This document shows, one piece after another, positions 4,087-23,561 of a stretch of DNA of 44,584 nucleotides. Position 1 is the stretch's first letter, and every line of letters begins with the position of its first letter. The translations under genes and the position numbers were made by a program. Below the pieces are notes generated by a model, which did not search any database, was not told where the DNA came from, and was given only the letters and a program-made list of their open reading frames with translations. The DNA comes from Candidatus Rokuibacteriota bacterium (lineage in GTDB: Bacteria > Methylomirabilota > Methylomirabilia > Rokubacteriales > CSP1-6), in contig QHSI01000018.1 in NCBI GenBank assembly GCA_003221515.1, forward strand, positions 1 through 44,584, given 5' to 3'.

Positions 4087-6091
4087 GCCTCGCCGGCCGG
4101 GGCGGCGGCATCCGCCGGTCCCAGCCGATCTCGGCCTGCGCCACGACGTGAGGCACGTCCTCGGCGAGGAGAAAGCCCGAGCGCGCGAGCGTCTCGGCCT
4201 CACGTTTGACGAGCTCCACGTACTGCGTTCGGTCGCCATAGCGCTCGATCACGCTCGCGCGCGGATCGCCACTGCGCTCGCGCTCCGCCCGGTCGCGCGC
4301 AAACGGGATGAAGGTTCCGTAGAAGTCCACGAGCTCACCCGGGTTGACCGCGCCGCGACGGAGGCTCCACGGAGTGTAGGTCGCCAGCGGGGCCAGGAGC
4401 TCCAGGCTCCGGACACCGCCCACCTCGTTGCCGTCGGCGTCTACTTGAGGCACGCGAACGGGGAACGCCCGGCCGAGCCGCGGCGGCTCCAGCGTGATGA
4501 TACCGTTCGCCCATCGCGGCCCGTAGTCGACCCGGTACGCCTCGTGCGCCGCGCGCGGCCATCCGACTCCGGGAATCGCTGGAGCTTGCACGCGATCCAC
4601 CGCGACGAGCGTGGCGTTGTCGAGGCGAGGGTGCCGGCTCGGGGGCGGCTCGCGTCCGTCCCGCACCCACTCGACCAGCCGCGTCAACAGCGACCTCAAC
4701 GTGGGATGAAAGTCGAGCGGGCTGCCTCGATACGTCGCGACGGGGTCGGTCCGCTCCGGGACGGCCGGCGTGCCCACCACGAAATGCTGGGCGCCGGCGA
4801 GATGGTAGATGCGCTCGCTGGCGAGCAGCTCCACGTCGGCGTCGGCGCCCGGTGTCGTGTGGATCAGCGAGGCGGCGCGGCCCCAGTACTCGTAGCCGGT
4901 GTTGGTGAAGAAGATCTTCGGCACGTGCGCCTCGTGGGCGAACAGCCCGTCGGTCATGCCCGTCTCCGGATCGCGTTGACTTCGGCCGCTGAACGGAAAG
5001 AGGTCCGTCGGATAGAAGAACGCGGAGAACCGATGCGCGTCGCGTGACGGCTGCGCGAACCGATGGTTGAAGCTCCCGCGCCCGGCGCCGGCCGTGTGCA
5101 CGAACAGGCCGTCGAACACCTGGCGTCGCGCCTCGTCGGTGTTGAAGCCCTGATAGACCAGATGCCGCAGGAACCGGCCGGTTTGCGAGATCCCGAGGCC
5201 GAGGGCCCAGCGGACCCCAAAGGGACTGGCCTTGTCGTACTTGGCGTACGAGATCATGTCCCGCACCGCGGCGAGACCCATGCCGACGACCACCGGGTCG
5301 CGCGCACGGTAGACGAGCTCGTAGATCTTGCCTGGCTCGAAGCCTCCGGTGCGCGCGATCCGCGTCTCGTCCACGAAGCGCCACTGGTCCCGCGGCACGA
5401 CGCGGCGAGCCGCCAGCCGGCCGTCGCGCTCGGTCAGCACGTTGTCGGCGTGCTCCGTGTCGGCGATGGGATACGGCCGGTGGTTGCGGTGGCCGAGCGG
5501 CAGGGTCGCGACGCGCTCGTCCACGGTCCAGTCGCAGCGCACCGGGCCCTCGATCGGGCGGGCGCCGTCGGTCGCGATCGGCACATCGAGGCGCATGGCG
5601 CCGTCGCGGAGCGGCACGTCGAACTGCCAGCCCACCCAGATGAGCGTCAGCCCGAGGCGTAACGGAAGCGCGTCGCCGAAGTCATCCGCGGTCGTCGGGT
5701 TCGCTCTCCACGCCGCGCGCGCGAAGTACGGCAACACGGCCTTGCCCCCACGGTTGGAGACCTCGAGAAGCGCGACCGCGCGGTCACGCGGCATCGCCTT
5801 CGGGCGCAGGACCATGAAGTTCGCGGATGCGGTGACGCGGCCGCTCGCGTCCTTCGGCGCGCGCGTGAGGTCCACGATGGCCGCGTTGGCGGTGTTGGCC
5901 GTGTCGAGCGCGAACTCGACCACACCGGCCAGCTTCTCGTAGCCGCCCGCCGTCCCGAAGGATCGCCCGCCGAGGACGTCCTCACGCGATTCGACGGTGA
6001 CGCGACTCACGACCGCCGCGGCGGGGCGTGCGACGACGAAAGACAGAAGCGCGAGGCCCAGCAGGGCGGGAGCCAGACGACGCGCCGTCAT
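4082..6091 (-). CDS. Exported alpha/beta hydrolase domain-containing protein (Abhydrolase_10-like)
   Basis: This 669-residue protein starts with a Sec signal peptide (MTARRLAPALLGLALLSFVVARPAAA). It matches the large hydrolase-like family often annotated 'alpha/beta hydrolase domain-containing protein'. The nucleophile elbow is visible as GISQTGRF with Ser302, followed by the RHLVYQGFN helix typical of this family. A C-terminal His candidate is in LAGAQHFVVGTP. Substrates of this family are poorly known. The open frame continues upstream to 6634, but the signal peptide and the divergent SoxC gene make the ATG at 6091 the sensible start. It is on the same strand as the Rieske and PQQ dehydrogenase genes, 68 bases upstream, so it could head that unit. 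Confidence 0.85.
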   Translation of the reverse strand: MTARRLAPALLGLALLSFVVARPAAAVVSRVTVESREDVLGGRSFGTAGGYEKLAGVVEFALDTANTANAAIVDLTRAPKDASGRVTASANFMVLRPKAMPRDRAVALLEVSNRGGKAVLPYFARAAWRANPTTADDFGDALPLRLGLTLIWVGWQFDVPLRDGAMRLDVPIATDGARPIEGPVRCDWTVDERVATLPLGHRNHRPYPIADTEHADNVLTERDGRLAARRVVPRDQWRFVDETRIARTGGFEPGKIYELVYRARDPVVVGMGLAAVRDMISYAKYDKASPFGVRWALGLGISQTGRFLRHLVYQGFNTDEARRQVFDGLFVHTAGAGRGSFNHRFAQPSRDAHRFSAFFYPTDLFPFSGRSQRDPETGMTDGLFAHEAHVPKIFFTNTGYEYWGRAASLIHTTPGADADVELLASERIYHLAGAQHFVVGTPAVPERTDPVATYRGSPLDFHPTLRSLLTRLVEWVRDGREPPPSRHPRLDNATLVAVDRVQAPAIPGVGWPRAAHEAYRVDYGPRWANGIITLEPPRLGRAFPVRVPQVDADGNEVGGVRSLELLAPLATYTPWSLRRGAVNPGELVDFYGTFIPFARDRAERERSGDPRASVIERYGDRTQYVELVKREAETLARSGFLLAEDVPHVVAQAEIGWDRRMPPPRPARQ

Positions 6092-6110
6092 GATCGTCGG
6101 AGTATACGTC

Positions 6111-6139
6111 TTGACCCTTGGGGACCGCACGGCTACCCT
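6111..6139 (+). promoter_or_regulatory. Candidate sigma70-type promoter for the soxC-soxD-like operon
   Basis: TTGACC (6111-6116) and TACCCT (6134-6139) are separated by 17 bases. They lie between the divergent hydrolase start and the soxC-like ATG at 6201, leaving a leader of about 55 bases. The -10 match is partial. Confidence 0.4.
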
Positions 6140-6200
6140 CGACGCATTCTCGGCGACCGCGCAGGACTTCGCGAGGACCGCTTCGACGGGGAGGACAGCG

Positions 6201-7499
6201 ATGCGTCCACGACGCCGTGACCGCCGTTTCGACGATGCCCGCGATGCTGCCGGGAACGGGGTGCTCGATCGCCGAGCGTTCTTGAGGGGCGGCGCCGGCG
6301 CCGTGGCGACCGGAGCGTTCATGGCGTACGCCCCGAGCGACGCGAGCGCGGCCTCGCCGCCGGAGACTCCGTCGGGAATGACGACACCCGGCGCTCCCTT
6401 GAGCCCGTACGGATCGCCGGCCACGTTCGAGCGTGAGGTGACGCGCACCCTCATCCGCTCCCAGCCCGGCACGACGGGCGCCGGCGCGTCGCGCACCCCG
6501 CTCGAGGCGCTGGAGGGCATGATCACGCCGAGTGGGCTGCACTTCGAGCGCCACCACAACGGTGTACCCACGATCGACCCGGCGCAGCACCAGCTCCTCA
6601 TCCATGGCATGGTCGCGCGCCCGCTGATCTTCACGGTGGCGTCGCTGCAGCGCTACCCGATGGAGTCGCGGATCCACTTCCTGGAGTGCTCGGGTAACAG
6701 CGCGCTGATGTATGGGGCGACGCCGCCCACGCTCACGTGCGGACAGACGCATGGCCTGGTGTCCTGCAGCGAGTGGACGGGCGTCCCGCTGCGGCTACTG
6801 CTGGAGGAGGCGGGCGTCGATCCGCGGGCCGACTGGGTCCTGGCCGAAGGCGCGGACGCGGCGGCGATGAGTCGCAGTGTGCCGATGGCGAAGGCCATGG
6901 ATGACGCGATGCTGGCGTTGTACCAGAACGGTGAGCGCCTGCGCCCGGAGAACGGCTATCCAGTGCGACTGTTTCTTCCGGGCTACGAAGGCAACATGAG
7001 CGTGAAATGGCTCAGGCGGATCAAGGTGACGGACACCCCGACGATGACGAAGGACGAGACGTCGAAGTACACCGATCTCCGGGCCGACGGCACGTCGCTG
7101 ATGTTCACCTATCCGATGGAGGTGAAATCGGTCATCACCCGCCCCGCGCCGGGACTGAAGATGACGGGGCCGGGTCTCTACGAGCTGTCCGGAATCGCGT
7201 GGTCCGGCCGGGGAAAGATCCGCAAGGTCGAAGTCTCGGCGGACGGCGGGCAGACGTGGGCGGAGGCGGTCCTTGCAGCGCCGGTGCTCGCGTACGCGCT
7301 GACCCGCTTCCGGATCGCCTGGAAGTGGAACGGCGCCCCGACGGTGCTCAAGAGTCGCGCGACGGATGACGCCGGCCGCGTCCAGCCGACGCGCGACGAG
7401 TTGATCGCCCAGCAGGGCGCCAACGTCGTCTACCACTACCATGCGATCCAGGCCTGGCGCGTCGAGTCGACTGGCGAGGTCAAGAATGTCTACGCGTGA
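6201..7499 (+). CDS. soxC: Sulfite dehydrogenase molybdopterin subunit, SoxC-like
   Basis: A 432-residue molybdopterin oxidoreductase of the sulfite oxidase family. It has a Tat signal (DRRAFLRGGAGAVATG), the SoxC-type opening GMITPSGLHFERHHNGVP, and the molybdenum-ligating Cys163 in FLECSGN. The C-terminal dimerisation domain contains the ATDDAGRVQP motif. In the Sox system SoxC works with the cytochrome SoxD in the periplasm, oxidising sulfane sulfur or sulfite. The ATG at 6201 has GGGAGGA about 6 bases upstream. It overlaps the cytochrome gene by 14 bases, which supports a SoxCD-type pair. No soxA, X, Y, Z or B is in the window, so this may be a stand-alone sulfite dehydrogenase and not part of a thiosulfate pathway. 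Confidence 0.9.
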   Translation: MRPRRRDRRFDDARDAAGNGVLDRRAFLRGGAGAVATGAFMAYAPSDASAASPPETPSGMTTPGAPLSPYGSPATFEREVTRTLIRSQPGTTGAGASRTPLEALEGMITPSGLHFERHHNGVPTIDPAQHQLLIHGMVARPLIFTVASLQRYPMESRIHFLECSGNSALMYGATPPTLTCGQTHGLVSCSEWTGVPLRLLLEEAGVDPRADWVLAEGADAAAMSRSVPMAKAMDDAMLALYQNGERLRPENGYPVRLFLPGYEGNMSVKWLRRIKVTDTPTMTKDETSKYTDLRADGTSLMFTYPMEVKSVITRPAPGLKMTGPGLYELSGIAWSGRGKIRKVEVSADGGQTWAEAVLAAPVLAYALTRFRIAWKWNGAPTVLKSRATDDAGRVQPTRDELIAQQGANVVYHYHAIQAWRVESTGEVKNVYA

Positions 7500-8031
7500 G
7501 GCGCTCGCGGTCGCCACGTGCGTCATCGTCTTCGGCGGCTGTGCGGGCACGGCCCCTCGCGAAACGCCGAACCTTGGGCGCGCGGCAACGCAAGCCGAGA
7601 TCGCGGGATGGGACATCAGCATCGCTCCCGACGGCCGGGGATTGCCGCGGGGCGCCGGGACGCCGGCCGACGGCGCACTGGTCTATGCCCAGAAGTGCCA
7701 GGTTTGCCATGGGGACAAGGGCGTGGGCGGGCCAAACGACCGGCTCGTCGGAGGGCAGGGGACCCTGGCGAGCAAGACGCCGGTGCGCACGATCGGCAGC
7801 TACTGGCCCTACGCGACGACCGTGTTCGACTACGTCCGGCGATCGATGCCGTTCTTCCAGCCGCACTCGCTGACGGACAGCGAGGTCTACGCGGTCACCG
7901 CCTATCTGCTCAGCCTGAACGGAATCATCGGGGAGCAGGACGTGATGAATGCCGAGACGCTTCCCAAAGTGAAGATGCCCAACCGCGACAACTTCATTCT
8001 GGTCCAGCCCTGGAAGCCCCGGGTGCAGTGA
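7486..8031 (+). CDS. soxD: SoxD-like class I c-type cytochrome
   Basis: The 181-residue exported protein has an N-terminal hydrophobic stretch ending FGGCAGTAP, which could be a lipoprotein or Sec signal. It carries one haem site, Cys71-Gln-Val-Cys74-His75, and a likely axial Met in RRSMPFFQPHSL. The spacing and the conserved YWPYATTVFDYVRRSMPF segment are characteristic of SoxD-type cytochromes. It is shorter than diheme SoxD and corresponds to one haem domain. The ATG at 7486 lies inside the end of soxC, so translation is probably coupled. It should accept electrons from the SoxC molybdenum centre. The convergent thioredoxin-like gene overlaps its last 38 bases. Confidence 0.87.
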   Translation: MSTREALAVATCVIVFGGCAGTAPRETPNLGRAATQAEIAGWDISIAPDGRGLPRGAGTPADGALVYAQKCQVCHGDKGVGGPNDRLVGGQGTLASKTPVRTIGSYWPYATTVFDYVRRSMPFFQPHSLTDSEVYAVTAYLLSLNGIIGEQDVMNAETLPKVKMPNRDNFILVQPWKPRVQ

Positions 8032-8980
8032 CGGGCTTCAGGGCCCCCTCGAGCTCGCGCCGCGTGGTCAATCCCTCGAACCTCGCGCGGACGATCCCTT
8101 TGCCGTCCACGACGAAGATCCACGGCTCGGAGCGGAGGTTCCACTCCTCGACCGTGGGCGAGAACTTCTGGAGGGACTCGCTCTCCCAGATCTCCTCGTG
8201 GATGAAGACGACGCGATCCCCATAGGCCGGGATCAGCGTCCGCACGACGTCGACGACCGGGCCGCACACCCGGCTGGTGCAGTACCTCGGCGTCGCGAAC
8301 ACGATCACCTGCGGCTTGCCCTGGGCGATCGCGTCCGCGATCCGCGTCCGATGTAACCGCGGATCCGGCGGCTCGCTGGAATCGATCTGCTTCAGCTCGC
8401 TGACGTCGCTGGCGATGCGGTTCCGACTGCGCGGGGCCGGCGTCCCGACCGTCGGCGCGGGCGACGTCGCGAGGGCGCTGACGCTCAAGCGCGCCGACTC
8501 GAGGGCGCCGCTGCCCACCTGCGCGAGGACCTCGAGGCCCCACGTGCCGGAGTGCTCGAAGGCCACCTGCGCCACGTAGATGCCCTGCACGTCGGTCGCG
8601 TCGCCGTGGACGTGACGCGCGCCGTCCGGATGGATGTGGATCCGCTTGCCCCGTTCGATGACCTCCAGCCGATGGTAGCGCGCCGGCGTTTCGGCGATGA
8701 GACGCGCGTCCTCGCCTTCGATCGCATAGACACGCACCGCGACCCTGGCGTCGGCGAGCAGCTTTCCGTCCTTCAGGAGGCCGAAGGCCAGTCGATTCTG
8801 GCCGACGAGCAGCTCGGACGTCGTGAGCAGGACTTGAAGGCGGTCTGTTCCCGTCGGGGCGAGCTGCGCCGCCGGCCGGTCGCGCTGGGCGAAGCAGACG
8901 GCCAGGAGTCCCAGCGTGACCGCGCCGGAGATGAGGGACGGACGCAGGCGCGCCCGTCCCTGCCGTTCGCTATTCCACAA
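7994..8980 (-). CDS. Exported thioredoxin-fold protein with N-terminal FixH/YtkA-like region
   Basis: The 328-residue product has an N-terminal membrane/signal segment (SLISGAVTLGLLAVCFA). A beta-rich region of about residues 45-170 resembles YtkA/FixH-type domains, with a His-rich patch HIHPDGARHVHGD that could bind metal. The C-terminal thioredoxin fold has a CTSRVC motif (Cys234, Cys239). Four residues between the cysteines is not the usual CxxC of thioredoxins and resembles peroxiredoxin-like or SCO-like proteins. The TTG at 8980 is the first in-frame start and overlaps the end of the PQQ-cupredoxin gene by 11 bases; an internal start is possible. Co-transcription suggests a role in copper or thiol handling for that enzyme, which is inference. 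Confidence 0.7.
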   Translation of the reverse strand: MWNSERQGRARLRPSLISGAVTLGLLAVCFAQRDRPAAQLAPTGTDRLQVLLTTSELLVGQNRLAFGLLKDGKLLADARVAVRVYAIEGEDARLIAETPARYHRLEVIERGKRIHIHPDGARHVHGDATDVQGIYVAQVAFEHSGTWGLEVLAQVGSGALESARLSVSALATSPAPTVGTPAPRSRNRIASDVSELKQIDSSEPPDPRLHRTRIADAIAQGKPQVIVFATPRYCTSRVCGPVVDVVRTLIPAYGDRVVFIHEEIWESESLQKFSPTVEEWNLRSEPWIFVVDGKGIVRARFEGLTTRRELEGALKPVTAPGASRAGPE

Positions 8981-11036
8981 TGACCTGGCCGTACTGCCAG
9001 GGGTGGGGCAGACAGATGTAGTAGTAGTTGCCGGGCTGCGCGAAGGTGACGGCCTTCGACTGGCCTTTGACCAGCACGCCCGTGTCCCACTTGCCCCGGT
9101 CCATCGACGTCGCCGAGTGCGGCAGGTCGCCGACGTTGGTGAAGGTCACGGTGGTCCCGGCCTTGATCCGCACCCGGGCCGGCGCGAAGCTGTACTCCAC
9201 GTTGTTCGCGCCGATCCTGACCGCGTCGGCTCCGGCGGCGATCGGTCCGGTGGGCCCCGCGACGGTTTGCGGCGGTGGCGGCGGCCACAGCGGACCCAGC
9301 TGGCCCTTCAACGAGAACGCCCACACCGCGTCGCCGTACGCGCTGCCCGTGAGCTGGTTGCCACCCGTCGCGATCGCGACGAACTGCTCGCCGTCCACTT
9401 CGTAGATCACGGGCGGCGCATCGGCGCCGAAACCGGTCTGGAACCGCCACAGCTCCTTGCCCGACTTGGCGTCGATCGCGAGGAAGTTGCCGTCGGGATC
9501 GCCGCGGAACACGAGGCCGCCCGCCGTGACCGACGAGCCACCGCCGCCGCCGATGCGATACGGGGTCTTGTTCTGCCAGGCGATCTTGTTCGTCTTGCCG
9601 TCGATCGCCGTGAACGTGCCGCTCATCGGTGAGTTGATGGGCGCCGACTGGCTTCCGCCGGTGTAGCGCAGCCCGAGCACGTACTTGTCGCCGAAGCGCG
9701 TGAACGCGCTCGTGCGCACCGTGCCGGGCACGTAGAAGTAGCCCGTGTCGGGGCTGTACGGCATCGGCGACCAGTTCGTGCCGCCGATCCCCGACGGCTG
9801 CATGAGCACCGGGGTCTCCCAGAAGGTGTCGAAGATGCAGCCGGCTTTCTCATAGCCCGTCAGCAGCTCGGCACACTGCGGCACGGTCGCGTCGCCGCGG
9901 GGGATCGGCTGGGTCTTGGCCGTCTTCTGCCGCGGGTCCTGAGGTACCGGCTTCTCGTCGATTCCGATCAGGGGCTTGCCGTCCGTCCGATCGAGGATGT
10001 ACACCCAGCCCGTGCGCCCGGCCTCGGCGATGCCCTTGCGGGGCTTGCCGTCGATGACGGTGTCGAAGAGGACCACCGGGCTGGCCGCGTCGTAGTCCCA
10101 GATGTCGTGGTGCACTTGCTGGAAATGCCAGACGTACTCGCCGGTCTTGGCCTTCAGGGCCATCATCGAGGCGCAATAGAGGTTGTCGCCCTCGCGCATC
10201 GAGCCGTCGTAGTCCGGTCCGCAGTTGCCGGTGACGAAGTAGACGAGCCCGAGGTCGGGATCGAGGGCCGGCGTGTTCCAGATCGTCGCGCCGCCGCGCA
10301 TCGAGTGATCTGTGCCGGGCGGCCAGGTCTCGCTGCCGCGCTCGCCGGGCGCCGGGAGCGTGTACGAGCGCCACAGGATTGCGCCGGACTTGGCGTCGAG
10401 CGCGGTCAGCCGGCCCCGCACGCCGAACTCGCCGCCGGAGATGCCGCTGTAGATGATTCCGTCGTAGTAGAGAGGCGCGCTCGTGATGGTGTAGCCGTTC
10501 TCCCACTTCTCGAGGGGCGTCTTCCACTTCACCTCGCCGGTCTTCATGTCCAGGGCCACCATGTTGGCGTCGAGCTGGCCGGAGAAGAGCAGACCCTCGC
10601 CCATGGCGAGCCCCCGGTTCACCCAGCCGCAGCACACGGTCGAGATCTTCTGGTCGATGCCGGACCAGTATTCCCAGATGATCGCGCCCGTTTTCGCGTT
10701 GAGCGCGAAGACGTCGTCGTTGCCCGTGACGACGTACATGATCCCGTCCTTGACAAGCGGCGACCCCTCGAAGGAATACTTGCCGCCGGCGCCGGAGCCC
10801 TTGAGACGGGTCATCCAGGCTCCCTTGAGCTGGGCGACGTTGGTGGTGTCGATCTGCTTCAGCGTGGAGTACCGCTGGTTGGTCAGGTTGCCGCCGTTCG
10901 TGACCCAGTCCTTCCCGGCCGGGCCCCGGATCAGACGATCCATGTCCGGGTCGGCGGCCAGGGCTGGCTGGACCATCAGGAACAAGAAGCTCAGCGTCGT
11001 CACCACCGCGATCACTTGCTGCCCCAGACGTCGCAT
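8970..11036 (-). CDS. PQQ-dependent alcohol dehydrogenase fused to a C-terminal cupredoxin
   Basis: A 688-residue exported quinoprotein with signal peptide ending VQPALA-AD. Residues about 30-570 form the PQQ propeller, with the vicinal disulfide Cys135-Cys136, the Glu of GGEFGVRG, the Asn of TGNCGPDYDG, catalytic Asp314 and the lanthanide-type Asp316 (WDYD). After a Pro-rich linker (PLWPPPPPQ), residues about 595-688 are a cupredoxin of the amicyanin/plastocyanin type. Its copper ligands are His640, Cys675 and His678, but the axial Met position holds Gln681 (C-LP-H-PW-Q). Known two-domain PQQ alcohol dehydrogenases carry cytochrome c here, so copper probably replaces haem as internal electron acceptor. 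The start at 11036 has AGGGAG upstream. It is followed by the overlapping thioredoxin-like gene. Confidence 0.9.
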   Translation of the reverse strand: MRRLGQQVIAVVTTLSFLFLMVQPALAADPDMDRLIRGPAGKDWVTNGGNLTNQRYSTLKQIDTTNVAQLKGAWMTRLKGSGAGGKYSFEGSPLVKDGIMYVVTGNDDVFALNAKTGAIIWEYWSGIDQKISTVCCGWVNRGLAMGEGLLFSGQLDANMVALDMKTGEVKWKTPLEKWENGYTITSAPLYYDGIIYSGISGGEFGVRGRLTALDAKSGAILWRSYTLPAPGERGSETWPPGTDHSMRGGATIWNTPALDPDLGLVYFVTGNCGPDYDGSMREGDNLYCASMMALKAKTGEYVWHFQQVHHDIWDYDAASPVVLFDTVIDGKPRKGIAEAGRTGWVYILDRTDGKPLIGIDEKPVPQDPRQKTAKTQPIPRGDATVPQCAELLTGYEKAGCIFDTFWETPVLMQPSGIGGTNWSPMPYSPDTGYFYVPGTVRTSAFTRFGDKYVLGLRYTGGSQSAPINSPMSGTFTAIDGKTNKIAWQNKTPYRIGGGGGSSVTAGGLVFRGDPDGNFLAIDAKSGKELWRFQTGFGADAPPVIYEVDGEQFVAIATGGNQLTGSAYGDAVWAFSLKGQLGPLWPPPPPQTVAGPTGPIAAGADAVRIGANNVEYSFAPARVRIKAGTTVTFTNVGDLPHSATSMDRGKWDTGVLVKGQSKAVTFAQPGNYYYICLPHPWQYGQVIVE

Positions 11037-11148
11037 GTCGTTCTCCCTTACTTCCGGCGGCCGTGAGCGCGCTTCTTCCCGTAGCGGGACGCCCCCGCTT
11101 GCCGTCGCGCCGCCTCGCGCGATCGGACTCCAGTCGGGGCGCGGCCGA

Positions 11149-11177
11149 GAAATACCGCCGCCTATCATCCATGTCAA
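11149..11177 (-). promoter_or_regulatory. Candidate sigma70-type promoter for the PQQ-cupredoxin gene
   Basis: On the minus strand a perfect TTGACA (11177-11172) is followed after 17 bases by TATTTC (11154-11149). This is about 110 bases before the ATG at 11036, in the gap shared with the divergent YVTN propeller gene. Confidence 0.45.
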
Positions 11178-11223
11178 GGAACTCTCTTGACTATGGAATG
11201 CCCCTGGAGGAGTCTCGTCGGCG

Positions 11224-12183
11224 ATGCGCCGATCAGCTCTCGCCGGCGTGGTCCTGCTCGTCCTCGCGTTCGGCTCCACTCGGGCCGGCGCCGAGCTACG
11301 CGTCTTCGTCACCAACGAAAAGTCCGATGACGTGACGGTCATCGATGCGGCGACCCGAGCCGTCGTCGGAACGATCAAAGTGGGCAAGCGCCCGCGGGGC
11401 GTCGCGGTGAGCCCCGACGGCCGGAAGGTCTACGTGAGCAACAGCAACTCGGACAGCTTGAGCGTCATCGACGCGAAGACGCTCGAGGTGCTGAAGACGG
11501 TTCCGGCGGGCATCGACCCGGAGGGACTGACCCTGAACCGGGCGGGCACCGCGCTCTACGTCGTCAACGAGAACGAGCTCTCGGTGACGGTCCTGGATGT
11601 CGCGTCACTGACGGTCCGCAAGAAGATCGCCGTCGGCAAGGAGCCCGAGACGGCGGTGGCCTCGCCGGACGGGCGGTGGATCGCCGTCTCCAACGAGACC
11701 TCCGACGACATCCACGTCATCGCCGTGGCGAGCGACACGGTCGTCAAGCAGATTCCCGCGCCCAAAAACCCGCGCGGCATGCGCTTCTCGGCCGACTCGC
11801 GCCAGCTCTTCGTCGCCAGCGAGCAGGCCCACGTCGTCTCCGTGATCGACATGGCGGACATGAAGGTCGTCAAGTCGGCGCCGACCGGCGGCGGGCGCCC
11901 CGTCGACGTCGTGCTGACGCCGGATGGCTCGCGCCTGTACGTGTCCCACGGTCAGACCGGAGACGTCCGGGTGCTGGACAGCGCCTCGCTCAAGGTGCTC
12001 GCGGTGATCCCGACCGGTCCCCGCACCTGGTGGACCGCGCTCAGCCCGGACGCGCGATTCCTCTACGCGACCGTCGGGCGCGCCAACGAGCTGGCCGTGA
12101 TCGACACGAGCTCGAACACGGTGGTCGCACGCGTTCCCTGCGGCACGCTGCCCTGGGGCGTGGCGATCGCTGACACGCCCTGA
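11224..12183 (+). CDS. PQQ-associated YVTN beta-propeller protein
   Basis: The 319-residue exported protein has a signal peptide (LVLAFGSTRAGA) followed by about seven repeats with the pattern VxVIDxxTxxVxxTIxVGxxPxGxxxSPDGxxxYV. The first blade, VFVTNEKSDDVTVID, closely resembles the family 'PQQ-dependent catabolism-associated beta-propeller protein', which is usually encoded near quinoprotein dehydrogenases. Its role is unknown; a periplasmic scaffold or ligand-binding function is assumed. GGAGGAG at 11206-11212 is 11 bases before the ATG. It is divergent from the PQQ-cupredoxin gene, consistent with the family association. Confidence 0.88.
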   Translation: MRRSALAGVVLLVLAFGSTRAGAELRVFVTNEKSDDVTVIDAATRAVVGTIKVGKRPRGVAVSPDGRKVYVSNSNSDSLSVIDAKTLEVLKTVPAGIDPEGLTLNRAGTALYVVNENELSVTVLDVASLTVRKKIAVGKEPETAVASPDGRWIAVSNETSDDIHVIAVASDTVVKQIPAPKNPRGMRFSADSRQLFVASEQAHVVSVIDMADMKVVKSAPTGGGRPVDVVLTPDGSRLYVSHGQTGDVRVLDSASLKVLAVIPTGPRTWWTALSPDARFLYATVGRANELAVIDTSSNTVVARVPCGTLPWGVAIADTP

Positions 12184-12199: not shown

Positions 12200-12712
12200 T
12201 CAGACGATGAGGCGGAGCCAGCGCGGACCGCTTCTCGCGAAGATCTGGTCGACTCCCCACGTTCGTCCCGCGCGCGCGAAGAGAAAGATGATCATCGAGG
12301 TCACCAGAAGGACGTGGAAGCCCTGCTGTCCGAAGCTCATCCACTGGCTGGCCAGACCGTAGTTCAGGCACAGAAACAGCCCGACCAGCGCGGTAAGGCC
12401 GGTCACCAGTCCGAGGATCAGCCCGAGGCCGACCGCCGCCTCGCCGAAGGTCTGAAGCGTCGCGAACACCTTGCTGTTCGGCAGGACCGTCCCCTCGAGG
12501 AAGTTCTTGTACCATTCGACGGGGTTCCCGGCGGCGAACTCGGCGATCCGCTTGGGGTGGAAGGCGACGAAGCGCGGGGAGACCGCCGGGTACGGGATCA
12601 GGTCCCCGAGGAACGCGAGGGTGAACTTGGTCCACACCGCTTTCACGAACCACACACCGACGACGACCCGCAGCAGAACGACCCAGCGGTCCGCGTGGAC
12701 CATGGGCGGCAT
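12200..12712 (-). CDS. DoxX-like integral membrane protein
   Basis: About 170 residues with four predicted membrane helices: WVVLLRVVVGVWFVKAVW near the N-terminus, two in the FGEAAVGLGLILGLVTGL to LFLCLNYGLA region, and FHVLLVTSMIIFLFA near the C-terminus. The helix 1 pattern and the FGE motif preceding helix 2 are typical of the DoxX family, whose founding member is the quinone-binding small subunit of thiosulfate:quinone oxidoreductase. Such a protein could pass electrons from periplasmic oxidation to the quinone pool, which is inference. The start is uncertain: ATG 12712 or 12703, or TTG 12739. It converges with the YVTN gene, with only 16 bases between stop codons. Confidence 0.75.
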   Translation of the reverse strand: MPPMVHADRWVVLLRVVVGVWFVKAVWTKFTLAFLGDLIPYPAVSPRFVAFHPKRIAEFAAGNPVEWYKNFLEGTVLPNSKVFATLQTFGEAAVGLGLILGLVTGLTALVGLFLCLNYGLASQWMSFGQQGFHVLLVTSMIIFLFARAGRTWGVDQIFARSGPRWLRLIV

Positions 12713-12781
12713 GCTAAGGGACGTCGCGAGCGCGGTCAATTGTTTCTAGGCGGGCCTCGTCCCCTGCGACCCGCGGAGGCG

Positions 12782-12937: not shown

Positions 12938-14668
12938 ATGAGGACAGCATGCACGCTCGCCCTGGCCGCGCTGATCGCGTGGTCGTCACTGCTGACGCCG
13001 GCGCCAGCGGCGGCCCAATGGACCGACGTGACGGACCAGCGATTGGCCGACCCGGACAAGGAGCCGCAGAACTGGCTCACCTACTACCGGAGCTACGGCG
13101 GCTGGCGCTACAGCCCGCTCACCCAGATCAATGTACAGAACGTCAAGCGCCTGTCGCCGCGGTGGATGCTCTCGTTGGGCGAGGCCGGCAACCAGCAGGC
13201 GACGCCGCTCGTGAACAACGGCGTGATGATCGTGACGTCGCCGTTCGGGCAAGAGCTCAATCGCGTCTACGCGGTGGACGCCACGACCGGCAAGGTCCTC
13301 TGGAAGCACGAGACGAAGCTTCCTGAAGACCTCACCGGCCTGGTCAAGATCCTGTCGATGAACCGCGGCGCCGCGCTCTACGGGGACCGCGTCTACTTCG
13401 GCACCATGGACGCGCGCGTGGTCGCGCTCAACGGCAAGACCGGCTCCGTGGTCTGGCAGAAGACGCTGGCCGACTACAAGGACGGGTACTTCTTCACGAT
13501 GGCGCCGCTCGCCGCCGACGGCAAGATCATCGTCGGCTCCAGCGGCCCCGGCGAGATGGGCAGTCGTGGATTCATCGCCGCCCTCGACGCCGACAGCGGT
13601 CGTGAGCTGTGGCGAACCTACACCATCCCGTCCGCCGGCGAGCCCGGTGTCGATACGTGGCCGGGCGAAACGTGGAAACACGGCGGCGGCGCCGTGTGGC
13701 TCACCGGCACGTACGATCCGGGGTCGAAGCTGGCCTTCTTCGGTGTCGGCAACCCGGCGCCGTGGGACGCCAACCTCCGGAAGGGCAAGAACCTCTACAC
13801 CAACTCGGTGCTCGCCCTCGACGTCAAGAGCGGCGCCATCAAGTGGTTCCGGCAGTACCACCCGAACGACACCTGGGACCTGGACACGCCGCACGAGCAT
13901 CTGCTCATCACCATCACCCGCGGCGGCCAGCCGCAGCAGGTGACGTTCCAGCCGCAGAAGACCGGCTTCTACTTCACGCTGGATCGGACCAGCGGCAAGT
14001 TCGTCTCGGCCAAGAAGTTCGCCCGCAACATCACGGTGTGGTCGGACGTGAACGCCGAGACCGGCGAGCTCATGGAGAACCCAGGCATGCGGCCGGAGGC
14101 CGGGGCGCCGCCGATGAACATCTGCCCGGCGATCTTCGGTGCGCGCAACTGGGCGCACGCCTCCTTCAATCCCAAGACCGGGCTCGTGTTCCTGCCGGGC
14201 ATGGAGCTCTGCAACAAGTACTCGATCGCGAAGGAGATCGAGTACAAGCGCGGCGCCCTCTACATCGGCGCCGACTTCACGGCATACGCGCCCGAGGAGA
14301 ACGCGGGCGTCGTGCGGGCCATCGACCCGGCCAACCAGAAGACGACGTGGGAATGGTGGACCAAGGCCCCACTCCAGGCTGGGGGCACAGTGGCCACCGG
14401 CGGCGGCCTCGTCTTCGTCGGGACTCAGGACGGTCGGCTGGTTGCCCTCAACCAGGCCAACGGCAAGCAGGCCTGGGAATTCAACCTGGGCGCGCCGGTG
14501 ACCGGGCCGCCGATCAGCTTCGCCGTCGGTGCCAAGCAGTACATCGCCGTCGTCACCGGCGGCGGCAAGGTCACCGGCGATCTGCTCGTCGGGGACGACC
14601 CGAAGCTGCAATACCTCAAGTCGATCCCGGTCGGAGGGACGCTGACGGTCTTCGGACTCTTCGAGTGA
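12938..14668 (+). CDS. PQQ-dependent alcohol dehydrogenase (XoxF-like)
   Basis: A 576-residue exported quinoprotein with signal peptide ending TPAPAAA-QW and the usual propeller blades. Visible ligands are the Glu in GPGEMGSRG, the Asn in GVGNPAPW, catalytic Asp314 and a second Asp316 (WDLD), the lanthanide-type pattern. Like the frameshifted paralogue, and unlike the cupredoxin fusion, it has no vicinal Cys pair. The two also share NWLxYxRxxxGWxYSPLxQ and PGETWKxGG, so they are closer to each other. The ATG at 12938 was chosen because GGGA lies about 8 bases before it and it directly precedes the signal peptide; ATG 12932 and GTG 12836 are less likely. The binding protein-cytochrome fusion follows with a TGATG overlap, as in xoxF-J-G clusters. 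Confidence 0.92.
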   Translation: MRTACTLALAALIAWSSLLTPAPAAAQWTDVTDQRLADPDKEPQNWLTYYRSYGGWRYSPLTQINVQNVKRLSPRWMLSLGEAGNQQATPLVNNGVMIVTSPFGQELNRVYAVDATTGKVLWKHETKLPEDLTGLVKILSMNRGAALYGDRVYFGTMDARVVALNGKTGSVVWQKTLADYKDGYFFTMAPLAADGKIIVGSSGPGEMGSRGFIAALDADSGRELWRTYTIPSAGEPGVDTWPGETWKHGGGAVWLTGTYDPGSKLAFFGVGNPAPWDANLRKGKNLYTNSVLALDVKSGAIKWFRQYHPNDTWDLDTPHEHLLITITRGGQPQQVTFQPQKTGFYFTLDRTSGKFVSAKKFARNITVWSDVNAETGELMENPGMRPEAGAPPMNICPAIFGARNWAHASFNPKTGLVFLPGMELCNKYSIAKEIEYKRGALYIGADFTAYAPEENAGVVRAIDPANQKTTWEWWTKAPLQAGGTVATGGGLVFVGTQDGRLVALNQANGKQAWEFNLGAPVTGPPISFAVGAKQYIAVVTGGGKVTGDLLVGDDPKLQYLKSIPVGGTLTVFGLFE

Positions 14669-15729
14669 TGTGGCTCCGCGGCCTCGCCCTCGCCGCGCTC
14701 GCATGGGCGGCGGGGGCCGAGGCCGCCCAACACGAAGGGCTGGAGTCGATCCGGCAGCGCGGCTACCTGCGAATCTGCGCCGACCCCTCGAACCTTCCGT
14801 ACTCGAGCAACGACCCGGCCGCACCCGGCTTCGAGGTCGAGCTGGCCCGGCTCATCGCCGCCGAGCTCGGCGTGACGGCACGCCTGGAATGGCGCGCGAC
14901 GTACGTGCGCGCGATCAAGCCTCTGCGCGACGGCGCCTGCGAGCTGTTCATGGGGCTCCCCGTGGACCGCCGCTTCCGCGAGGGCAACCCCTGGATCGCG
15001 GTCAGCCGACCGTACTACACGATGACGCACGGGCTGGTGACGCGCGCCGACGCGGGCTCGCTCACGATCGCCGACCTCAAGGGCCAGCGCGTCGCCGTCG
15101 AGCTGGCGAGCATCGCCGAGTTCTACGTCGCGTACCGCGATGTGGTGCGCGGGCTCTACAAGACGCAGGAGCAGGCGTTTCAGGCCGCGGCTCGCGACGA
15201 GGCCGTCGCCGCGTTTCTCTGGTTTCCGCTGGCGGCGTGGCTCGCCCGCGGGCGCGCCGACCTGAAGGTCGTCGCCGTCTCGGACGAGGGCCTGGCGTTT
15301 CCGATCGGGGCCGGGGTACGCAAGCGGGATCCGGGCCTCGCCGAGGCGATCGACGCGGCCGTCGAGCGAGTGCTCGCCTCTGGCCAAGCGCAGGAGGTCC
15401 TCGCGCGCTACGGCATCGAATCGGCCAGGCGGACGTCGCGCGAGCCATCGTGCTCACCGTTCGTGCTGGTGCAGGAGAAGGACCCCCGCGAGACGGGCCG
15501 CGCGCTGTTCTCCACCGCGTGCTCGCGCTGTCACGGTGCCGAGGGCGTGGGGGGCGGCACGGGCGGCGCGCTGCCGAAGCTGCGCAATTACGACGGTGGC
15601 TACGACAAGTTCTATCGCCTGGTATGGGAAGGTCGGAAGAACACGGCGATGGCCGCGTTCAAGGGCATCCTGAGCCCCGACGAGGTCCGCGCGCTCTACG
15701 AGTATCTGACCTCGCTTCCCAGGCAGTGA
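14668..15729 (+). CDS. MoxJ/XoxJ-like binding protein fused to cytochrome c
   Basis: 353 residues with a signal peptide (LALAALAWAAGAEA). Residues about 25-255 are a periplasmic binding-protein domain of the quinoprotein dehydrogenase-associated (MoxJ/XoxJ) type: GYLRICADPSNLPYSS, then PGFEVELARLIAAELG and GACELFMGLPVDRRF. Residues about 265-353 are a class I cytochrome c with haem site Cys285-Ser-Arg-Cys288-His289 and a likely axial Met in RKNTAMAAF. In methanol dehydrogenase clusters XoxJ and the cytochrome XoxG are separate proteins; here they are one chain. It would both assist the preceding dehydrogenase and accept its electrons, which is inference. Start overlaps the dehydrogenase stop (TGATG), and its stop overlaps the next start (GTGA). 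Confidence 0.88.
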   Translation: MWLRGLALAALAWAAGAEAAQHEGLESIRQRGYLRICADPSNLPYSSNDPAAPGFEVELARLIAAELGVTARLEWRATYVRAIKPLRDGACELFMGLPVDRRFREGNPWIAVSRPYYTMTHGLVTRADAGSLTIADLKGQRVAVELASIAEFYVAYRDVVRGLYKTQEQAFQAAARDEAVAAFLWFPLAAWLARGRADLKVVAVSDEGLAFPIGAGVRKRDPGLAEAIDAAVERVLASGQAQEVLARYGIESARRTSREPSCSPFVLVQEKDPRETGRALFSTACSRCHGAEGVGGGTGGALPKLRNYDGGYDKFYRLVWEGRKNTAMAAFKGILSPDEVRALYEYLTSLPRQ

Positions 15730-16817
15730 CTCCGGCGCCGCTCGTCGCCGCGCTGCTCGGCACGCTGGGCGCGGTGGGAGCCGCGGCCGCCGAGCCGCCG
15801 CCGATCGTCGTTCCCTCGGGCTTCCGCGTCGAGATCGTGGCGGACGGCCTCGGCGCGCCACGCATGCTCGCGCAAGATGCGTCCGGAACGCTGCTGGTGT
15901 CGATCCCGAGCGAGGGACGTGTCGTCGCTCTGCCCGCGAGCCCGCGACCTCGAACGCCCGTCACGGTCGCCGCGGGGCTACAGCTTCCTCACGGGCTCAT
16001 CGTGCGTGACGGACACCTCTGGGTGGGCGAGACGGGGCGCGTGCTGCGGTTCCGCTACGACGTCGCCACCCACCGCGCGACCGAGCCGGTCGTGATCGTC
16101 CCCGATCTGCCGCCGGGCGCGCACCACTGGACCCGGTCGATCGCCTTCGGCCCCGACGGCCGGCTGTTCGTGGCGATCGGCTCCTCGTGCGACATCTGCC
16201 GCGAAGGGGATCGCCGCCGCGCCACGATCGTCAGCTACGCACCGGACGGATCGAACGAGCGCCTCGTCGCGAGCGGGCTGCGCAATCCCGTCGGGCTCGC
16301 GTTCGACCCGAAGACCGGCGCGTTGTGGACGACAGTCAACGAGCGCGATTGGCGCGACGGTCGCGCCCCGCCGGACTTCTTCACGCTGGTGCGCCCCGGC
16401 GCCAACTACGGCTGGCCTGACTGCTACGTCCAGGGCGGCGCGGTCACGCCCGATCCCCAGTTTCGCGGCGCGCGCGACTGTCGTGACATCACGCTGCCTT
16501 CCGTCGAGCTTGCTCCGCACGCGGCGCCGCTCGGAATCGCCTTCTATAGCGGGACGCAGTTTCCGGCGGCGTATCGCGGAAACCTCTTCGTCGCGCTCCA
16601 TGGCTCCCGTGCTGAGCTTCCGCCGGCCGGCTACAGGATCGTGCGGGTCGCTTTCCCGGCCGGCGGACGACCGCGCGTCGAGGACTTCGCGACCGATTGG
16701 CGCGCGGGTGGTCGCGTGTGGGGCCGCCCGGTCGACGTGCTCGTGGGGCGCGACGGCGCGCTCTACGTCTCGGACGATCATGGCGGGCGTGTGCTCCGCA
16801 TCACCTTCGTGCCATGA
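15726..16817 (+). CDS. PQQ-dependent sugar (sorbosone/glucose-type) dehydrogenase-like propeller
   Basis: A 363-residue exported six-bladed propeller of the soluble glucose/sorbosone dehydrogenase fold. The signal peptide ends VGAAAA-EP. Family features include VPSGFRVEIVADGLGAPR at the N-terminus, HHWTRSIAFGPDGRLFVAIG with the likely catalytic His, GLRNPVGLAFDP, and GANYGWPDCY. A Cys pair in SSCDIC is notable. The fold uses PQQ in sugar dehydrogenases, but many members have other or unknown substrates. The GTG at 15726 overlaps the previous stop as GTGA, so translation is coupled to the XoxJ-cytochrome fusion. It is probably the last gene of the operon starting at 12938. Confidence 0.85.
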   Translation: MTPAPLVAALLGTLGAVGAAAAEPPPIVVPSGFRVEIVADGLGAPRMLAQDASGTLLVSIPSEGRVVALPASPRPRTPVTVAAGLQLPHGLIVRDGHLWVGETGRVLRFRYDVATHRATEPVVIVPDLPPGAHHWTRSIAFGPDGRLFVAIGSSCDICREGDRRRATIVSYAPDGSNERLVASGLRNPVGLAFDPKTGALWTTVNERDWRDGRAPPDFFTLVRPGANYGWPDCYVQGGAVTPDPQFRGARDCRDITLPSVELAPHAAPLGIAFYSGTQFPAAYRGNLFVALHGSRAELPPAGYRIVRVAFPAGGRPRVEDFATDWRAGGRVWGRPVDVLVGRDGALYVSDDHGGRVLRITFVP

Positions 16818-20614: not shown

Positions 20615-20978
20615 CGGAGGGACCAGAACGCCGCGGGAAACGCGTTGTCGGCGCTCTTCATCAGCGCTTAATCCAGCGGCCGATCAGTCCTAGCAGGACG
20701 CCACCCGTCACGACCACGACTGGAGCGCTGATCAGAGCGAGGCCGAATCGGGTCAGGTCTTCCACGACGTCATCACCGTACGCCGCGCGGATGAGACGAC
20801 GATGAGATCGACATGAGAAGTCGAGGCGGCGCGCCGCGCGAGCTCGGCGATCAGCTTCTCGGAAGCGCGGTGGCATCGAACTCGTAGAGCCAGTAACACC
20901 AGGGCCGACCCACGCGGCGCGCTCCGCGACCTTCCTCTGCTAGACTCCCGTCAGCCATCCTCAACCGAGGTGTCATCC
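20615..20978. other. Intergenic region upstream of the CoA-transferase
   Basis: This 364-base gap contains only a doubtful small minus-strand ORF (20661-20876). No convincing intrinsic terminator follows the binding-protein gene, and no strong promoter hexamers were seen before the CoA-transferase. A GAGG at 20967-20970 serves as ribosome binding site for the ATG at 20979. Confidence 0.5.
20661..20876 (-). CDS. Possible small single-pass membrane protein
   Basis: Up to 71 residues, ending in a hydrophobic helix FGLALISAPVVVVTGGVLLG followed by a basic tail (RWIKR). The N-terminal half is Arg-rich and may not be translated; shorter starts inside the frame are possible. The membrane helix is the only support, with no recognisable family. 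Confidence 0.28.
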   Translation of the reverse strand: MPPRFREADRRARAARRLDFSCRSHRRLIRAAYGDDVVEDLTRFGLALISAPVVVVTGGVLLGLIGRWIKR

Positions 20979-23561
20979 ATGCAAGCCGAGGAGCAACGCC
21001 GCCGAGGTCCCCTCACAGGGATCCGCGTCATCGAGCTGGCCGACGAGCAGGCGGAATACTGCGGCCTGACTCTGGCCGGGTTGGGCGCCGACGTCGTCAA
21101 GGTAGAGCCGCCCGGCGGCAGCCCCACGCGCCGCATCGGTCCCTTTTACGAGGACCGAGAGGATCCGGAGCGCTCGCTGTTCTTCTGGCAGTACAACCGC
21201 GGGAAGCGGTCCATCGTGCTCGACCTGCGTCAGCCGCAAGGCCAGGATCAGTTCCGCTCGCTGGTCGCCACCGCCGACGTGCTGCTGGAGTCGACGCCGA
21301 AGGGCGAGCTCGATGCGCTCGGGCTCGGCGTGGCCGCGCTCCTGCGCGAGTTTCCCACGCTGATCGTCGCGCGGACGTCGCCGTTCGGCGACGACGGTCC
21401 GTGGGCCGCGTTCAAGGGCTCGGACCTGGTGCACCTGGCGCTCGGCGGCGTCATGATGAATTGCGGCTACGATCCGTCGCCGGGCGGCACCTACGATCTG
21501 CCCCCGATCGCGCCGCAGATGTGGCACGCCTTCCACATTGCCGGCGAGCAGCTCTCGGTGGCCATCATCGCCGCGCTGCTCTATCGCTGGCGCACCGGCA
21601 AGGGGCAGTCCCTGTCGTGCGCGGTCCACGAGGCGGTGGCGAAATCCACCGAGGTCGACCTCATGACGTGGGTGATGCGACGATCGCTCGTGCTGCGGCA
21701 GACCTGCCGTCACGCGCGCGAGAGCATCACGCCGCATCCATCCATCGTGCACACCAAGGACGGCCGCTGGGTCATGGCGAACCTCGGCACGCGCCCGGGC
21801 GAGACCGAGCAGCTCATCAAGCTGCTCGAGCGCTACGGCATGGACGCCGGCCTCGACCCAGAGAAACCCTCGTTGCCATCGAGCGGACGCTTCGTTCCGG
21901 GCACCGGGCCGAGCACGGCGAAGCGTGACCACGCCATGGAGGCCGTGCAGCGCTTCGTGCGCGCGTTCACCTACGAGAACGTGCCATGGCGCGAGGCCCA
22001 GGAGGCCGGCATGCTCTGGGCGCCGCTGCGGAAGCCGCACGAGAACGCGATGGATCCGCACTGGCTCGCGCGCCGGAGCTGTACGGACGTCGAGCACCCC
22101 GAGCTCGGCCGCTCGTTCCGCTACGCCACGAGCAAGTGGCTGGCGACGCGCACGTCCTGGTCCGTCGGCCGCCGTGCGCCGCTCTTGAACGAGGACGCGA
22201 AGACCGTGGCCCTTCCGCGCGAGCAGGATCTGCCGGTGATCGACGCGTCCGCGCGCGCGCCCCTCAACGAGGCCCTCTCGCCTCGGGGCAAGCCGTTCCC
22301 GCTGCACGGCATCCGCATCCTGGACTTCACGTGGTTCCTGGCCTCGGCGGGTGGCACGCGCTTTCTGAGCGCGTTCGGCGCCGAGAGCATCAAGGTGGAG
22401 TTGAAGAGTCACCCGGATACCCGCATGGCCGCGATGGCGCCGGTCGGCGGTCGCGCCGCGCGTGAGAAGGCCACGGGACCGCTGCCCGGCGTCACCGACC
22501 CGGACATGGGCGGCCAGTTCAACAACAAGAACCCGGGCAAGCGCGGGATCTCGCTGAACGTCAGGCATCCGAAAGGTCTGGAGATCGCCCGGCGGCTGGT
22601 CGCGATGTCCGACGTCGTCGCGGAGGGCTTCTCGCCGGGCGTGCTGGACAGCTGGGGGCTTGGATACGACGCGCTCCGGGCGATCAAGCCGGACATCATC
22701 TACGTTCAGCAGTCGGGCATGGGAGCGAAGGGCACCTACGGCCGCTTCCGCACCGTGGGCCCGATCGCGAATTCTTTCTCCGGCTTGTCGGAGATGTCCG
22801 GGCTCCCCGAGCCGGCGATGCCAGCCGGGTGGGGCTACTCGTACCTGGACTGGATGGGCGCGTACAGCTTCGCGCTGGCGATGCTCACGGCGCTCTTCCA
22901 TCGCGCGCGCACGGGCGAAGGGCAGTGGGTCGATGCCTCGCAGTCCGAGGTCGGGCTCATGATCAGCGGCACGACGATCCTGGACTGGTCGGCGAACGGC
23001 CGGATCTGGTCACGCTACGGCAACCGGTCTCCGTACAAGCCGGCGGCGCCTCACAACGTCTACCCGTGCGCCGGGCACGATCGCTGGCTCGCCATCGCGT
23101 GCTTCACCGAAGCGGAGTGGCGCGCGCTGGCCGAGGTCGCCGGACATCGGGAATGGGCGAGCGACCCCCGGTTCAAGGATCTCGCGTCGCGGCGCAGGCA
23201 TCAGGATGCGCTGGACGCGCTCGTCGGGAGCTGGACGAAATCCCAGGACGCCTCTCACGCGATGCTCGCGCTCCAGCGCGCCGGCGTGCCGGCCGGCGTG
23301 TGCCAGACCGCGGAAGACCGCTGTGACCACGATCCGCAGCTGGCGGCGCTCGAGTGGTTGACCGAGGTCACGGGCACGAAGATCGGCCGCTGGCCGCTCG
23401 CCGAGGTGCCCATCAAGATGAGCGAGAGCCCGGCCTACATCGGCGGCCGCCTCGACCGCGGCGCACCCTGCTACGGCGAGGACAACCAGTACGTGTACGG
23501 CGAGCTGCTGGGGATGTCGTCGCAGGAGATCAAAACCCTCACCGACGAGGGCGTGATCTGA
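20979..23561 (+). CDS. Tandem-fused class III (CaiB/BaiF) CoA-transferase
   Basis: 860 residues made of two consecutive class III CoA-transferase domains, about 10-410 and 430-850. Each begins with a similar strand, GIRVIELADEQAEYCG and GIRILDFTWFLASAGG, followed by GADVVKVEPPGG and GAESIKVELKSHP. Each has a ...NRGKRSIVLDLR / NPGKRGISLNVRHP segment typical of the family. Class III enzymes move CoA between carboxylic acids as interlocked dimers, so a fusion could form the pair within one chain. The ATG at 20979 has GAGG 8 bases upstream. The thiolase-fold gene converges from the other side, 12 bases away; the substrate acid is unknown. Confidence 0.88.
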   Translation: MQAEEQRRRGPLTGIRVIELADEQAEYCGLTLAGLGADVVKVEPPGGSPTRRIGPFYEDREDPERSLFFWQYNRGKRSIVLDLRQPQGQDQFRSLVATADVLLESTPKGELDALGLGVAALLREFPTLIVARTSPFGDDGPWAAFKGSDLVHLALGGVMMNCGYDPSPGGTYDLPPIAPQMWHAFHIAGEQLSVAIIAALLYRWRTGKGQSLSCAVHEAVAKSTEVDLMTWVMRRSLVLRQTCRHARESITPHPSIVHTKDGRWVMANLGTRPGETEQLIKLLERYGMDAGLDPEKPSLPSSGRFVPGTGPSTAKRDHAMEAVQRFVRAFTYENVPWREAQEAGMLWAPLRKPHENAMDPHWLARRSCTDVEHPELGRSFRYATSKWLATRTSWSVGRRAPLLNEDAKTVALPREQDLPVIDASARAPLNEALSPRGKPFPLHGIRILDFTWFLASAGGTRFLSAFGAESIKVELKSHPDTRMAAMAPVGGRAAREKATGPLPGVTDPDMGGQFNNKNPGKRGISLNVRHPKGLEIARRLVAMSDVVAEGFSPGVLDSWGLGYDALRAIKPDIIYVQQSGMGAKGTYGRFRTVGPIANSFSGLSEMSGLPEPAMPAGWGYSYLDWMGAYSFALAMLTALFHRARTGEGQWVDASQSEVGLMISGTTILDWSANGRIWSRYGNRSPYKPAAPHNVYPCAGHDRWLAIACFTEAEWRALAEVAGHREWASDPRFKDLASRRRHQDALDALVGSWTKSQDASHAMLALQRAGVPAGVCQTAEDRCDHDPQLAALEWLTEVTGTKIGRWPLAEVPIKMSESPAYIGGRLDRGAPCYGEDNQYVYGELLGMSSQEIKTLTDEGVI

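Follow-up and report, generated by a model that had tools for sequence, protein, structure and literature searches.

We found that a Rokubacterial genome carries, directly behind a PQQ-dependent dehydrogenase, a single protein chain in which a XoxJ/MxaJ-like binding (J) domain is joined to a class I c-type cytochrome, and that this J-cytochrome fusion is strongly tied to PQQ dehydrogenases across distant bacteria. The reading we favour, at a probability of roughly 0.6, is periplasmic alcohol oxidation by a PedH/ExaA-like dehydrogenase with a tethered J docking helper and electron acceptor, using PQQ from neighbouring organisms. The host DNA (the window, i.e. the whole stretch of 44,584 nucleotides analysed) forms contig C30 in a genome bin of 5.1 Mb and 95% completeness; the genomes analysed are metagenome bins. 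Open reading frame analysis placed three plus-strand genes end to end, encoding the dehydrogenase, the fusion and a glucose/sorbosone dehydrogenase-like (GSDH) propeller (Table 1), the first two overlapping by TGATG (14666-14670) and the last two by GTGA (15726-15729). These genes, their overlaps and the haem site C285-x2-C288-H289 are all present as the preliminary description had them. Its central observation, one 353-residue chain holding both a binding protein and a cytochrome, is supported by Pfam matches above cut-off for SBP_bac_3 (residues 34-249, 47.4 bits; cut-off 26.4) and Cytochrome_CBB3 (residues 275-347, 43.2 bits; cut-off 27). The fixed 1:1 stoichiometry of helper and acceptor that it proposed is a necessary consequence of having both on one chain.

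Table 1. Coordinates in the window of the operon, the domains of the fusion and the adjacent genes
Feature	Position	Strand	Length and basis
PQQ-dependent alcohol dehydrogenase, PedH/ExaA-like 8-bladed propeller (predicted), signal peptide	12938..14668	+	576 aa; TIGR03075
J-cytochrome fusion: signal peptide, J domain ~22-255, linker 256-270, cytochrome 273-350	14668..15729	+	353 aa; Pfam and AF2
J domain in fusion, residues ~35-255	14770..15432	+	Conservation; fold match to MxaJ/XoxJ
Class I c-type cytochrome domain in fusion, residues ~273-350, CSRCH	15484..15717	+	Cytochrome_CBB3; PDB matches
GSDH-family (glucose/sorbosone dehydrogenase-like) propeller, signal peptide, GTG start	15726..16817	+	363 aa; PF07995
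Second PQQ dehydrogenase, C-terminal cupredoxin domain, vicinal CC present	8970..11387	-	PF01011, PF00127
ORF matching TIGR03866	11224..12183	+	252.8 bits, slightly below cut-off 287
DoxD/DoxX family membrane protein	12200..12739	-	PF04173, 46.1 bits

The exact start of the fusion deserves comment. In relatives it is mostly a GTG that overlaps the dehydrogenase stop by four bases (GTGA), with TTG in one, and a GTG is also present in the window at 14665, upstream of the ATG at 14668. The conserved start is therefore probably the GTG at 14665, in which case the ATG may encode an internal methionine. At the other end, fusion and propeller overlap by ATGA or GTGA in two congeneric genomes as well.

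The fusion is far from confined to this genome. Matches to the fusion protein were found in 27 of 99 related genomes, many of them spanning both domains. In a wider scan of 84,980 species genomes, the best 80 of at least 545 relatives were examined; these included Rokubacteria, many Bradyrhizobium, Acetobacteraceae, Ramlibacter, Rhodoferax and Acidobacteria, and none of these 80 came from Methylacidiphilum. At least 92 open reading frames combine a J domain with CxxCH, on contigs of Rokubacteria, Bradyrhizobium, Acetobacteraceae, Ramlibacter and Acidobacteria, and among the matches listed a PQQ dehydrogenase lies directly upstream in 89 of 92, a count that pools all loci and includes some contigs twice, from two collections. 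The database check suggested in the preliminary description, for this architecture beside PQQ dehydrogenases, thus came out in its favour. Dehydrogenase and fusion trees agree closely (r = 0.98 over 76 distinct pairs; maximum of 0.23 in 500 permutations), a correlation that includes shared descent and so shows a stable pair rather than proving contact. The recurrence of the same full-length fusion in many independent genomes rules out an assembly error joining two genes, an alternative that the preliminary description had raised, and a chance open reading frame is excluded by the domains, their conservation and a dN/dS of 0.16-0.27.

The dehydrogenase passes the model for PQQ-dependent methanol/ethanol dehydrogenases (539.7 bits; cut-off 480.05), and both sequence and structure rank PedH above XoxF. 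By sequence, the best PDB match is PedH (6zcv, 390 bits) with XoxF at no more than 267 bits; the AF2 model (pLDDT 89) matches PedH with a Z of 53.3 at 41% identity, and XoxF with a Z of about 50 at 31-34%. These two rankings place the enzyme as PedH/ExaA-like and rule out XoxF as its identity. The metal ligands and catalytic aspartate are kept (E206, N272 and D314, corresponding to ExaA E179, N266 and D316), and an extra aspartate two residues past the catalytic one (WD314-L-D316) forms a lanthanide-type DxD motif that is invariant in 35 dehydrogenases and predicts a lanthanide as the metal of the enzyme. The vicinal cysteine pair is absent: where ExaA has CCDVVNRG, containing Cys105-Cys106, the operon enzyme has LVKILSMNRG.

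In the AF2 model of the fusion (pLDDT 87.7), a disordered linker (residues 256-270, pLDDT < 50) separates two folded domains. The J half has XoxJ (6onp, E = 1e-13) as its top PDB sequence match, and in the fold comparison, in which all rows align the J half, it matches MxaJ (5sv6, Z 21.5), XoxJ (6onp, Z 20.3) and the MxaJ of an MxaF/MxaJ complex (9ism, Z 18.8), with several amino-acid binding proteins equalling or exceeding MxaJ in Z. Although its score against the MoxJ_2 subfamily TIGR03871 is below cut-off (84 versus 212.15 bits), the relationship to XoxJ/MxaJ remains supported because of the 6onp match. A C37-ADP motif and C91 are invariant in this half in the relatives' alignment. In the haem half, the motif C285-S-R-C288-H289 and M328, the likely axial methionine, are invariant across 19 relatives. 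By sequence this domain is closest to CcoP (8snh) and to the haem domain of a type II quinohaemoprotein alcohol dehydrogenase (1yiq); no XoxG or cytochrome cL chain was among its 51 PDB matches at E ≤ 0.01, no MoxG-type NCBIfam model matched the fusion at E ≤ 0.001, and the score against cytochrome c550 PedF (TIGR04494) was 30.9 bits, under the cut-off of 122. The labels "XoxJ" and "XoxG" first given to the two halves are loose: the J half is XoxJ/MxaJ-like, but these searches gave no XoxG match for the cytochrome half. With a PedH/ExaA-like dehydrogenase and a cytochrome half not recognisably XoxG, the locus is not a xox locus in the strict sense, and a fusion specific to the xox operon was rejected.

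The same genome also encodes a stand-alone J protein (C107; L136, 18653-19483, minus strand) that is 45% identical to the fused J. No PQQ dehydrogenase was recognised within about 20 kb around it, so it is no replacement for the fused J in the operon; a nearby gene resembles, by eye only, a [2Fe-2S] molybdenum-hydroxylase.

Joining J to a haem protein is in general already known, and the family described here differs in detail. Cytochrome cGJ of Methylacidiphilum is a XoxG-XoxJ fusion encoded in the operon xoxFJG:J and is reported to be the acceptor of XoxF (PMC8498564; PMC6688271; title of a reference cited in PMC8546591). This published fusion, along with the many homologous fusions in public genomes, refutes the earlier premise that the two parts occur only as separate genes. 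The present protein resembles cGJ in uniting a J-type binding domain with a c-type cytochrome in a single polypeptide whose gene belongs to a PQQ dehydrogenase operon. As far as a comparison by description goes, it differs in that its J is full length and N-terminal, whereas the J part of cGJ, speculated to bind the cytochrome to the dehydrogenase (PMC6688271), is truncated and fused to XoxG; further, the haem domain here lacks a XoxG/cL match and the partner is PedH/ExaA-like instead of XoxF. In the kind of dehydrogenase, a c550-type cytochrome and a J protein, the operon resembles PedH/PedE-PedF-PedG of Pseudomonas putida and ExaF/G/J of Methylorubrum (PMC12997753; PMC7391723), but in those systems cytochrome and J are in separate genes and the dehydrogenases have the vicinal disulfide. 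In type II quinohaemoprotein alcohol dehydrogenases (1yiq, 1kv9), too, a related haem domain is tethered to the oxidising apparatus, but it is fused to the dehydrogenase itself and not to a J protein. The fusions of Bradyrhizobium, Acetobacteraceae and Ramlibacter share the architecture and the position behind a PQQ dehydrogenase; they are about 26-31% identical, and the CC pair is present in their dehydrogenases. The papers we found give these fusions no name, and none found describes this family, in a literature search that missed most subscription journals. Proteomics has already detected methanol-dehydrogenase proteins from soil Rokubacteria (PMC5103831).

We propose that the products of the operon oxidise alcohols in the periplasm: the XoxJ/MxaJ-like half would bind the dehydrogenase and the cytochrome half, with haem attached and held on the flexible linker, would take electrons from PQQ and pass them towards the respiratory chain. 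With J and cytochrome on one chain, a single docking event would bring helper and acceptor together. This bears on whether MxaJ and XoxJ act as maturation factors or as go-betweens for dehydrogenase and cytochrome. Should J act in maturation only, inserting PQQ or metal, the fusion would merely deliver the two proteins together, the haem half would serve as a freely diffusing acceptor and the tether would have no mechanistic role. XoxJ and MxaJ are indeed reported as maturation factors binding partly folded apo-enzyme, possibly for cofactor insertion (review, PMC12997753), and the disordered linker fits such a role. If J left after maturation, however, little would be gained by linking it covalently to the acceptor, yet the link is kept across distant phyla and co-evolves with the dehydrogenase; we regard this account as rather unlikely. 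With J covalently joined to an acceptor and the fusion co-evolving with its dehydrogenase in many genera, this family allows the docking role to be tested directly.

Among the 76 pairs, 15, all Rokubacterial, have a dehydrogenase lacking the vicinal cysteines, which are present in the other 61. In the dehydrogenase tree as in the fusion tree, the 15 group together in a single clade with full support, and their dehydrogenases keep the metal and catalytic residues. In ExaA, the Cys105-Cys106 disulfide has been connected with the passage of electrons to cytochrome c550 (PMC12997753), and in the CC-less clade tethering might partly take over this function of efficient transfer to a free cytochrome. 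Since CC-containing dehydrogenases of the Bradyrhizobium type are likewise paired with the fusion, CC loss does not account for the tether, which did not originate as compensation; instead, the tether may have allowed the loss in the Rokubacterial clade. The SoxYZ relay carrier of CC-type enzymes (TIGR04557) has only sub-cut-off matches in the genome (best 87 versus 140 bits). This clade provides a natural experiment on the purpose of the vicinal disulfide and, together with the missing PQQ synthesis described below, is the part of these findings most worth following.

None of the nine genomes from the window's genus (G000-G008), four of which carry the fusion, has PqqC or PqqE at scores over cut-off, despite the several PQQ dehydrogenases encoded in the genus. 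Among fusion-bearing genomes of other genera, PqqC is present in 9/9 (Fisher p = 0.0014 against the window's genus) and PqqE over cut-off in 8/9, the ninth having a split match; outside the window's genus, PqqC accompanies the fusion in 9/9 genomes as against 4/17 without it (p = 0.0005). At the same time, dN/dS values of 0.16-0.27 for dehydrogenase, fusion and propeller against two congeners show that the operon is under purifying selection within the genus. Missing PqqC and PqqE combined with purifying selection suggest scavenged PQQ, and imported cofactor is the simplest account for this genus, whose holoenzyme would need the PQQ of its neighbours. Escherichia coli provides a precedent, having PQQ enzymes without PQQ synthesis. 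That a genus has the enzymes but not the synthesis suggests that soil microbes share the cofactor. The most specific form of our proposal, a CC-free quinoprotein clade whose acceptor is kept tethered by a J domain serving as a permanent dock, in a genus living wholly on neighbours' PQQ, is one we advance only tentatively.

The same data could be read as decay. With PQQ synthesis lost, the dehydrogenase of this genus might be a vestigial or "empty" quinoprotein, the pair having another role or eroding. The absence of PqqC and PqqE in 9/9 genomes and the loss of the vicinal cysteines fit this, as does a match to the "acido-empty-quinoprotein" model TIGR04528, albeit below cut-off (374 versus 650 bits); frameshifts interrupt two further PQQ dehydrogenases of the genome, so that some decay is also under way and loss of function could reach the operon enzyme. 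Against it, every catalytic and metal residue tested is retained, the dN/dS of the dehydrogenase is 0.16-0.17, and members of the CC-less clade are also found in genera with PqqC and PqqE, in some cases with pqq genes close by (G024, G025, G034, G028). A vestigial enzyme is thus improbable. Finally, an independent ABC-type solute sensor with haem, unrelated to the dehydrogenase, would accord with the amino-acid binding protein fold and its Z scores, but is very hard to credit when XoxJ is the top PDB sequence match and nearly all fused copies stand behind a PQQ dehydrogenase.

The third gene has a narrower distribution. The propeller passes the GSDH model at 76.9 bits (cut-off 25) and may perhaps be a second PQQ enzyme. 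A GSDH gene follows the fusion immediately in three species of the window's genus and on one other Rokubacterial contig (L096); at other fusion loci it is kilobases distant or missing. The preliminary description was right that the propeller is coupled to the pair here, but it is a local partner, mainly in this genus, and not a general partner of the fusion.

Several further genes were noted. The cupredoxin-fused PQQ dehydrogenase represents another acceptor fused to a quinoprotein and is kept beside the operon in L032, L033 and L037, while a DoxD/DoxX gene lies close to the fusion in L032, L033, L035, L037, L038 and L042. At 3349-1759 (minus strand) in the window, a CC-less PQQ dehydrogenase is frameshifted and lacks about 65 residues near 446-513 in the numbering of the operon dehydrogenase (P0001); it is probably a pseudogene. 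The same genome's second pair of dehydrogenase and J-cytochrome (L044; G000 contig 98, 3021-5781, minus strand) has a fusion 34% identical to the first and a dehydrogenase whose reading frame is interrupted near residue 481. Elsewhere in the window, the gene of a SoxC-type sulfite dehydrogenase (TIGR04555, 583 bits) stands ahead of one for a small CBB3-type cytochrome (5997-8031, plus strand), a likely SoxCD-like pair, and an 863-residue protein (20970-23561, plus strand) contains a tandem pair of CaiB/Frc-type CoA-transferase domains.
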